Part shown: in pieces, positions 13,333 through 62,001 of the stretch
Layout: every line of letters starts with the position of its first letter
Numbering within the stretch: the stretch's first letter is position 1
From: Rhodohalobacter halophilus
GTDB lineage: Bacteria; Bacteroidota; Rhodothermia; Balneolales; Balneolaceae
DNA: 64,000 nucleotides
Assembly: GCF_001715195.1 (NCBI RefSeq)
Contig: NZ_MDWE01000011.1
Coordinates: 62,001-126,000, forward strand
Direction of reading: 5' to 3'
Position numbers and translations under genes: made by a program
The notes under the pieces: generated by a model
Database searches by the model: none
The model's input: only the letters and a program-made list of their open reading frames with translations
Told to the model about the DNA's origin: nothing

Positions 13333-14556
13333 CTACTTGTAGAGAATGGACCCAAACGACACAGCGCTCTCAGTTCTCTGTTCATCCCACCAGTGGTAGT
13401 TGATCTGTTCTCCGTGTAACTCCGGAAATGCATTCATAAAGGTGAATAGCGGCGGGAATCCGCAAATTCGGGAGGAGTCGAAGTGTTCTGAAATTTCAGA
13501 GAGCAGATCTTCCGGGTTGTTGCGGACAGAAGCGTTTAGAAAGCGTTTGTCAATCTGCTCCACGTTTGGTTTCATCAGGTCGGCATGTACGCTGTCGCCA
13601 AATTTTTTCCCGATGTGAGACAGATCCCCGCTGATAAGATAGAATGTATCCGGAGTGTCGAGTTTATTCAGTTTTTTTGAAAACCGATTCAGCTTATCAG
13701 CAATATCACCTTCCGGATGGTACATCATCTCATCCAGCGAACCAACCAGAATGGGGACAATTTCAACATCGTGCTTCCAGATCTCCGAAATTAGCAGGAG
13801 GTGTATTTCAATACTGTGTTCAATCCGATGAGCCCGGTCGGAGAGGGTAAAGCCAGGTGCATTTTCTGCAAGCTTTTTCAGATAAGCCTGATCTGTTTCA
13901 AACGACCTGTGCGGCAAACGAAAAGTTTTTTCTGAACCGATAAACGGCGTTCCTTCATACTGATCGGGAAAATAGCCGGCATAGTGACTGGTAGCCAGAA
14001 TGACAACCCGCTTGGGCTGCAGATGTTTCAATGTTGAGAATGCCTCTGCATACTGCTCTTCACCCACCCGTAAATCGATGTGGGGAGCATAGAGGGCTTT
14101 GAACGATTGGGCGGTTGCCGCAGATTGGTCCTGATAGAGATCATTGAGGTACTGCTGAATTTCCTCCTCACGATCCGGGTAGCTGCTGCCATTCAGGATC
14201 GGTTTTCTCACGCTCAGTTTCTCAAACTCTTTTTCAATTCGGTTTGAAAACGTTCTGAAATGCTTGGTATTCAATATTCGATGCTGATCCAGAAGCTGGA
14301 CAAATTCCAGCAGCTCATCCTGTGATATATTTCCGTTCGACAGGTCGCAGATCTCCTTTACGGAAGTTTTTCCGTTGATGAGAGACAAAACAGTTTCCGT
14401 TTGAGAATCCAGAGCGAAATTTGGGGTAGTGTACCCCATTACATCATGAAAATAGAGAACGGACGTTCCATTATTTTGAACCGGAATTACCTGGATATCC
14501 CGGCGCAGTTCAGGAATGGGTGAGGTGTACGAGTCGAACAGGAGAGTGTCGTTCAT
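13333..14556 (-). CDS. Memo-family protein (AmmeMemoRadiSam system protein B) with N-terminal PqqD-like domain
   Basis: The 407-residue protein has two parts. Residues ~140-407 form a Memo/class III dioxygenase-like fold, with ATSHYAGYFP, RIEHSIEIHL, PILVGSL, YLISGDLSHIGKKFG and a final YHWWDEQRTESAVSFGSILY. The His/Asp set suits a metal-binding but undefined function. Residues ~45-100 (LDSQTETVLSLINGKTSVKEICDL and on) look like a PqqD-type winged helix. The start at 14556 shares an ATGA with the nth stop and has GAGAGG upstream, so translation is coupled to nth; the ATG at 14583 is less likely. The AMMECR1 and radical-SAM partners are not in this window. Confidence 0.85.
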   Translation of the reverse strand: MNDTLLFDSYTSPIPELRRDIQVIPVQNNGTSVLYFHDVMGYTTPNFALDSQTETVLSLINGKTSVKEICDLSNGNISQDELLEFVQLLDQHRILNTKHFRTFSNRIEKEFEKLSVRKPILNGSSYPDREEEIQQYLNDLYQDQSAATAQSFKALYAPHIDLRVGEEQYAEAFSTLKHLQPKRVVILATSHYAGYFPDQYEGTPFIGSEKTFRLPHRSFETDQAYLKKLAENAPGFTLSDRAHRIEHSIEIHLLLISEIWKHDVEIVPILVGSLDEMMYHPEGDIADKLNRFSKKLNKLDTPDTFYLISGDLSHIGKKFGDSVHADLMKPNVEQIDKRFLNASVRNNPEDLLSEISEHFDSSRICGFPPLFTFMNAFPELHGEQINYHWWDEQRTESAVSFGSILYK

Positions 14557-15323
14557 TCGTTTTGTCCTCTCATTTTCCAGCATTCACACTTCTTTCCATA
14601 TTTGATGCAGATGGGATGCTCGGGCGGTTCAGGGATTCTGGCTTTGCAGGCGTTCCGGCCGTGGTGAATCATTAGATGAGATAGGTTTGTCCAGTGCTCT
14701 TGTGGAAAGAGAGCCATCAAATCCTTCTCAATTTTATTGGTATTCTTTTTCTCACGTGTCAATCCAAAACGGTTCGATAGGCGTTTTACGTGAGTATCAA
14801 CAACAACGCCCACATTTTTGTTAAAAGCGTTACCCAATACCACATTGGCTGTTTTACGGGCTGCACCGCGCAGCTTAAGCAGATCCTTCATCGTGTCCGG
14901 AACCTCACCGTCAAACTCTTCCACAATGGTGGTTGACGCCTCTTTCAGAGATTTTGCCTTATTTTTGTAAAATCCCGTAGACCGAACCAGCTCTTCGAGA
15001 TCTTCAAGCGGAGCTTCAGACATTGCTTCTGGAGTAGGATAAGCCTCAAACAGATCCGGTGTTACCTTGTTCACGCGCTCATCGGTGCATTGTGCACTCA
15101 AAATCGTTGCGATCAGAAGCTCAAAAGGGTTCCGGTGATTGAGTTCGCAGTGAGGGTTTGGGTAGTGTTCGTAGAGTGCGTCAAGTATATCTTGTGCCCG
15201 CTCTTTTTGGGCTTTGCTTTTTCTTGGAAGTTTAGCCAATTCTGTCGGTTTGATTTTAAAATTAATACCAAAACTTATGAATGTCGATTCATAAATAAAA
15301 TTATGATCGAAAACGTTTGCCAT
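14553..15323 (-). CDS. nth: Endonuclease III (DNA glycosylase/AP lyase)
   Basis: This base-excision repair enzyme removes oxidised pyrimidines. The catalytic Lys lies in RGAARKTANVVLG and the catalytic Asp in VVVDTHVKRLSNRFGL. The helix-hairpin-helix reads LRGAA instead of the usual LPGVG. The C-terminus has four cysteines, but their spacing is C-X12-C-X6-C-X-C, not C-X6-C-X2-C-X5-C. The start is unclear: the ATG at 15323 has a GAGGCGGGG stretch before it and gives 256 residues. The first ~35 residues are AT-rich and unlike the family, so a non-ATG start near 15266 is possible. It is coupled to the Memo gene. Confidence 0.93.
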   Translation of the reverse strand: MANVFDHNFIYESTFISFGINFKIKPTELAKLPRKSKAQKERAQDILDALYEHYPNPHCELNHRNPFELLIATILSAQCTDERVNKVTPDLFEAYPTPEAMSEAPLEDLEELVRSTGFYKNKAKSLKEASTTIVEEFDGEVPDTMKDLLKLRGAARKTANVVLGNAFNKNVGVVVDTHVKRLSNRFGLTREKKNTNKIEKDLMALFPQEHWTNLSHLMIHHGRNACKARIPEPPEHPICIKYGKKCECWKMRGQNE

Positions 15324-15396
15324 CCCCGCCTCATTACTTTTCATGTAACCGATTGAATCCGTAAACTTGGCCACGTATCAAAATCAAAACAGTCTC

Positions 15397-61962: not shown

Positions 61963-62001
61963 GTTCTAATTTGTATAAATAGGGAACGGCTGAAAATAAA
62001 A

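Follow-up and report, generated by a model that had tools for sequence, protein, structure and literature searches.

A Memo domain fused to a predicted PqqD/RRE-like domain in Balneolaceae and their relatives: a possible self-contained enzyme acting on peptides or proteins

Background

Memo proteins range from archaea to humans, and the human member, MEMO1, was reportedly found by Qiu and colleagues to have an active site that binds a phosphopeptide. According to PMC11081632, residues H49, H81 and C244 of MEMO1 bind iron and copper, the iron being held in a dioxygenase-like site, and the standard substrates tried by its authors are stated to have given no dioxygenase activity. The unfused Memo protein of bacteria is protein B of the AmmeMemoRadiSam system (TIGR04336), in which its partners are AMMECR1 and a radical-SAM protein.

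Fusion of a Memo domain to a domain of the RRE fold has been mentioned once in the literature known to us: Bregman et al. (2025, mSystems) count the Memo-like family (PF01875) among RRE fusions "unprecedented in RiPPs" (PMC12710340). Like the protein described here, their fusions combine an RRE-fold domain, predicted with high confidence, with a Memo-like domain, but they are treated in one sentence, and the section on fusions names no organism or partner for them and offers neither a mechanism nor an analysis of their distribution (PMC12710340). Our search of the literature found no functional or distribution analysis of an RRE-Memo fusion, and further mentions may be present in the survey of Memo families by Burroughs et al. 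(2019). The present analysis adds the delineation of a fused clade, its near exclusion of AMMECR1 and the radical-SAM partner, its kept metal site and its gene contexts.

Domain architecture and metal site

The gene lies in a window of 64,000 nucleotides (positions 62,001 to 126,000 of contig NZ_MDWE01000011.1) from Rhodohalobacter halophilus (Balneolaceae). Its features, numbered from the first base of the window, are as follows.

13333..14556, minus strand: whole gene (407 aa), encoding a PqqD/RRE-like domain, a linker helix and a Memo domain
14266..14556, minus strand: predicted N-terminal PqqD/RRE-like domain, residues 1-97 (profile and structure comparisons)
14218..14265, minus strand: linker helix, residues 98-113 (DSSP on the models)
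13336..14217, minus strand: Memo domain, residues 114-407 (Pfam and NCBIfam; VIA Z 31 to human MEMO1 for residues 113-407)
14080..14082, minus strand: His159, equivalent of the MEMO1 metal ligand H49 (profile alignment; invariant in 55/55)
13984..13986, minus strand: His191, equivalent of the MEMO1 metal ligand H81 (profile alignment; invariant in 55/55)
13462..13464, minus strand: Cys365, equivalent of the MEMO1 metal ligand C244 (profile alignment; invariant in 55/55)
14553..14556, minus strand: ATGA overlap (4 bases) of the nth stop and the Memo start (sequence)
14553..15374, minus strand: nth, endonuclease III, longest frame (Pfam HhH-GPD; TIGR01083, E 1.7e-77)

The initial annotation, made from the letters alone, had described a Memo domain preceded by an N-terminal domain in a gene overlapping nth by ATGA, and its coordinates, strand and overlap all hold in the sequence. 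The Memo domain is recognized by Pfam (PF01875, residues 120-404, E 8.7e-34, 117.4 bits against a gathering score of 27) and, above the cut-off, by NCBIfam (TIGR04336, AmmeMemoSam_B, residues 117-385, E 2.1e-26). The true start of nth probably lies inside its longest frame; most relatives are 227-240 aa long. Neither Pfam nor NCBIfam assigns a family to residues 1-110 of the Memo protein; the N-terminal domain is conserved across 53 aligned sequences and folds confidently when modelled alone. Since the complete architecture is present in 59 of 296 genomes drawn from the phylum, it is not a chance frame. A phage or plasmid origin was rejected, with no match in phage or plasmid collections, and promoter-like sites are no commoner in the interval than expected by chance (5 found, 5.1 expected).

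Conservation of the Memo domain was assessed in an alignment of 55 sequences, which covers 28 of the 35 Balneolaceae genomes with the fusion (seven near-duplicates were set aside), one of the two named contigs and 26 other loci. Residues H159, H191, C365, D311, H314 and H247 are invariant in all 55 rows, and because the first three align with H49, H81 and C244 of MEMO1, we conclude that the Memo metal site has been kept. The fused protein shares this His-His-Cys site with MEMO1 at 23% identity, and its model superimposes on the MEMO1 structures with a VIA Z of 31 (7kq8 and 3bcz, over 274 and 268 residues with rmsd 2.7 and 2.3, respectively). MEMO1 itself has no counterpart of the N-terminal domain, as its chains are 293-294 residues long and the match begins at MEMO1 residues 4-5.

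The N-terminal domain as a predicted PqqD-type fold

For the N-terminal domain we used an alignment of 53 rows, from which two loci without this domain (L056 and L058) were omitted. The model built from it has a mean pLDDT of 92.2 and comprises strands at residues 21-28, 31-38 and 47-50 followed by helices at 51-59, 66-72 and 79-91, that is, the three strands and then three helices given for the PqqD/RRE fold in the corresponding part of PMC12710340 and seen in the domains of lasso B1, LynD, TbiB1 and PbtF. In profile-profile comparison (hhalign), the domain matches an alignment of PqqD-family proteins (20 of 25 loci fetched, from the same phylum) with a probability of 95.3% and E 2.1e-8 (94.2% in a separate run), against 0.2% for a control alignment of MarR winged-helix proteins (1 of 25 rows dropped); PqqD against MarR gives 1.2%. 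Among the 14 matches listed when the profile was run against PDB sequences, the best two are to the PqqD part of PqqC/D (E 0.0017 and 0.018), and LynD (E 0.46) and PaaA (E 0.57) rank lower; the same hmmsearch also returned the unrelated chains SMC5, OTUB1 and Hsp70 (E 0.029-1.9).

The structural neighbours agree in kind. VIA places lasso B1 with its leader peptide first (6jx3, Z 7.5), also finds MINA53 (2xdv, Z 7.1), and has TigE, LynD, TbiB1, the PbtF RRE, TruD and one GATOR1 chain among its best ten, so that the neighbours are mostly RiPP leader-binding domains and the winged helices of ribosomal oxygenases; all these PDB matches are below Z 8, a range that can mean just a common arrangement. 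The five best Foldseek matches in the PDB are to TruD and LynD (probability 0.99-1.00, E 0.014-0.032), and none of its PDB matches has E below 0.001. Single comparisons of this sort are not conclusive, but combined they support a PqqD-type fold, and the PqqD-like N terminus suggested by the initial annotation is thus upheld by modelling and by comparison with PqqD/RRE structures.

The domain nevertheless differs from described PqqD/RRE domains: it falls below the Pfam threshold, it has near-invariant PxxR and D residues of its own, and no precursor was found near it. The PF05402 (PqqD) model gives no match in the window protein even at E 10 and a weak one in 2 of the 53 N-terminal domains (best E 0.003). 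Other weak Pfam matches of single domains (TcaA, HTH_47, DUF4423 and others) were dismissed as noise, given that the profile methods agree on PqqD; the commonest such family was hit by 9 of the 53 members, with a best E of 0.0011. The near-invariant positions are P15 (52 of 53 rows), R18 (53 of 53) and D38 (52 of 54), which on the strength of their conservation are candidates for interface or substrate contact.

Distribution and phylogeny of the fused proteins

The 59 genomes that encode the fusion comprise 35 Balneolaceae (family f1 of our genome tables) and 24 outside this family; one Balneolaceae genome of the same draw, G175, gave no match. In a set of 58 Balneolaceae genomes, a Memo frame of more than 400 residues is present in 47; of the remaining eleven, one gives a weak match only and ten, mostly small genomes, are devoid of Memo. 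A scan of genome contigs added two named relatives, one labelled Balneolaceae and the other Chitinophagaceae. The latter (LKNA01000104.1) is the closest named relative, and its label is probably wrong or outdated, since the locus shares its gene order, and 64% identity, with the Balneolaceae-type locus described here.

In a midpoint-rooted tree of 77 Memo domains, 53 fused domains and two lacking the N-terminal domain (L056 and L058, kept as a group of their own) are separated from 22 unfused ones by a split with support 97/96, so that the fused proteins, which have the same Memo domain as AmmeMemoRadiSam protein B, lie on the opposite side of the tree from it. We regard the fused domains, together with the two lacking the N-terminal part, as a single, supported clade. 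Branching within it has little resolution, and in the tree long branches lead to L002 and to L159/L163. The two members without the N-terminal domain come from genomes G275 and G283; their position inside the clade indicates that this domain is dispensable in some lineages, and secondary loss is likely, the inner branching being too poor for proof. Long N-terminal stretches in three unfused Memo proteins (L165, L166 and L170) were considered as possible N-terminal domains and rejected; we read them as upstream frame added by the longest-ORF rule.

Absence of AMMECR1 and the radical-SAM partner

The initial annotation had noted that the gene is coupled to nth rather than to AMMECR1 and radical-SAM genes. 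Our search for distant copies extends this from the locus to the genome: in the window genome (97.8% complete) neither AMMECR1 nor the TIGR04337 radical-SAM protein was found, while the same searches were positive in 5 of 14 control genomes for AMMECR1 and over the cut-off in 4 of 14 for TIGR04337. Nor did this genome give any match to SPASM, the DUF692 oxidase or discrete PqqD (PF05402).

The pattern extends to the 296 genomes, of which 59 have the fused Memo, 47 AMMECR1 and 65 TIGR04337 over the cut-off. AMMECR1 occurs in 1 of the 59 fused genomes against 37 of 53 with unfused Memo only, and TIGR04337 in 1 of 59 against 46 of 53; all 47 genomes with AMMECR1 also carry TIGR04337. The sole fused genome that has both, G160, encodes a separate Memo-AMMECR1 protein. 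Fisher tests treat genomes as independent, and because related genomes are not, we give the p-values no weight; the same pattern is seen by family, with fused Memo in 8 families, AMMECR1 in 11, and an overlap of one (f38, that of G160). Sub-threshold TIGR04337 matches in some fused genomes (e.g. G042, G065, G127 and G128) are taken for other radical-SAM proteins.

Two side observations concern these partner families. The Memo-AMMECR1 fusion of G160 (L087:2036-3538) has 500 residues and a signal-peptide-like start. Four genomes of family f5 (G003, G008, G050 and G058) contain an orphan TIGR04337 protein (E down to 5e-198; e.g. L098:6845-8065 in G003, which belongs to the same class as the window genome) and show no match to AMMECR1 or to the window Memo protein.

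Proposed mode of action and alternatives

The N-terminal domain belongs by prediction to a class that holds peptides, it appears docked on a Memo domain whose metal site is kept, and two components of the usual system are missing; together this suggests a single-chain enzyme that acts alone on a peptide or protein. The docking is read from the full-length model (pLDDT 95.3, pTM 0.92), in which the N-terminal domain would be fixed on the Memo domain. The near-invariant P15, R18 and D38 and the reported phosphopeptide binding of human Memo also speak for a peptide or protein ligand. We therefore favour, at a probability of roughly 40%, a self-contained Memo enzyme whose N-terminal domain would grip a stretch of a peptide or protein chain and present one of its residues to the 2-His-1-Cys site, where it would be oxidized at a putative iron-type centre, in a reaction that would need neither AMMECR1 nor the radical-SAM protein of the AmmeMemoRadiSam system. 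Its target would more likely be a cellular protein or peptide that is constitutively present than the precursor of a classical RiPP.

Precedents for such an arrangement exist, which are analogous to the fused protein and not relatives of its Memo domain. The ribosomal oxygenases MINA53 and NO66, whose catalytic domain is JmjC, a fold other than Memo, combine a non-haem iron oxygenase with the winged helix that resembles the N-terminal domain. According to PMC6182338, this winged helix is C-terminal, in contrast to the N-terminal domain of the fused Memo. In TglHI, as outlined in PMC9016710, an RRE protein has a part in delivering the peptide on which a non-haem iron oxidase acts; VIA finds the TglHI structure (8hci) as a weak neighbour of the N-terminal domain (Z 2.9). 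A bolder proposal, namely a class of stand-alone protein or peptide oxidases built on the Memo metal site, with a PqqD-like domain as built-in grip, that replaces the AMMECR1- and radical-SAM-dependent Memo system, modifies a conserved housekeeping protein and is a convergent counterpart of the ribosomal oxygenases, strikes us as unlikely; if true, it would make the search for the substrate of a Memo protein tractable. A fused clade devoid of the usual partners narrows the Memo question to one gene and one docking surface, and with a peptide-binding-type domain fused to Memo and the partners gone, substrate capture becomes practical.

The alternative that survives best, though we consider it somewhat unlikely, is that the N-terminal domain serves as a cap, structural or regulatory, or as a dimerization piece on a metal-handling or redox protein active without any peptide. 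A fixed, docked domain, as the pTM implies, would suit this role, as would its greater variability relative to the Memo domain (mean entropy 2.24 against 1.98 bits) and its absence from two members of the clade; the winged helix of the ribosomal oxygenases is likewise presented in PMC6182338 without a clear function. On the other hand, domains of the PqqD/RRE fold are known above all as binders of peptides, and the conservation of P15, R18 and D38 seems to exceed what packing alone would require.

The neighbourhood of the gene bears on another possibility, a winged-helix-like domain that binds DNA or tRNA and a Memo domain that modifies or repairs a base. A link of Memo to nucleobases is said to have been proposed by Burroughs and co-workers. 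Of the 35 fused Balneolaceae genomes, 28 have nth upstream in the same orientation within the flank fetched (seven are without it); in 25 of these no predicted gene intervenes. The pair persists while the genes downstream vary (GldC-like, glycosyltransferase, transporter); its divergent neighbour is often an MFS gene. The 24 fused loci outside Balneolaceae adjoin varied housekeeping genes; nth is absent from all of them within the stretch fetched, and a CCA tRNA nucleotidyltransferase lies at most three genes upstream in 9, which belong to two families. These contexts do not overlap and each is limited to one or two families, so that synteny by descent explains them, and we read both as lineage-specific housekeeping neighbourhoods. 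Together with a profile unlike that of DNA-binding MarR proteins (0.2%), this makes a role in nucleic-acid modification distinctly unlikely. Of the tie to a DNA repair gene drawn in the initial annotation, the ATGA overlap stands and suggests translation coupled with nth, which need not imply a shared pathway, whereas the tie to repair is weak: a link confined to Balneolaceae and missing from the 24 outside loci is not in itself evidence of DNA repair.

Housekeeping neighbours of this kind do not point to a peptide either, which counts against the single-chain peptide or protein enzyme that we favour. So do the modest structural scores of the N-terminal domain, the inactivity of MEMO1 on the standard substrates, the two clade members that lack the domain, and the want of a peptide substrate, SPASM, DUF692 or discrete PqqD. 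The neighbours also count against a RiPP tailoring enzyme served by a precursor peptide of its own. Such an enzyme would agree with the RRE-like fold and with the retrieval of RRE-Memo fusions in the RRE survey (PMC12710340), yet the fusion is found in nearly all members of the family, and the short ORFs lying up to 6 kb away at 20 Balneolaceae loci include no convincing precursor peptide. Clusters of short ORFs spanning at least four Balneolaceae loci were rejected as candidates, being mostly positioned at the GldC-like gene and looking like its other frames; this does not cover two three-locus clusters (L088, L089 and L091, at overlapping positions). Combined with the lack of SPASM, DUF692 and discrete PqqD in the window genome, the want of a convincing precursor argues for a cellular protein as substrate, and we give the RiPP reading little credence. 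A divergent AmmeMemoRadiSam member with partners encoded far away, to which the above-threshold AmmeMemoSam_B score might point, deserves practically none, since 58 of the 59 fused genomes lack both partners, and it is already refuted for the window genome unless both genes fall in sequence that the assembly lacks.

Related domains outside the fusion

The window genome encodes a second, degenerate Memo protein (L002:1480-2250, contig C8; Pfam 46.7 bits), flanked by a phosphopantetheinyl transferase (PF01648) and a DUF2520 Rossmann gene, and judging by size and start sequence both neighbours are apparently kept in most loci of this kind. In an alignment of this protein with nine other Balneolaceae copies (L175-L183), neither His nor Cys is conserved at the three metal-ligand positions; a conserved acidic DE.DDF block is present instead.

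When the profile of the N-terminal domain was scanned against the 296 genomes, it matched in 63, in 59 of them within Memo fusions and in four, weakly, within other proteins. Three of these four (L083, L084 and L085) match in the N-terminal stretch of M50-peptidase-like membrane proteins, two of which have a weak Pfam M50 match and one no Pfam match; each of the three genes adjoins what appears, from labels assigned by eye, to be a gene of the terpene synthase/cyclase type.
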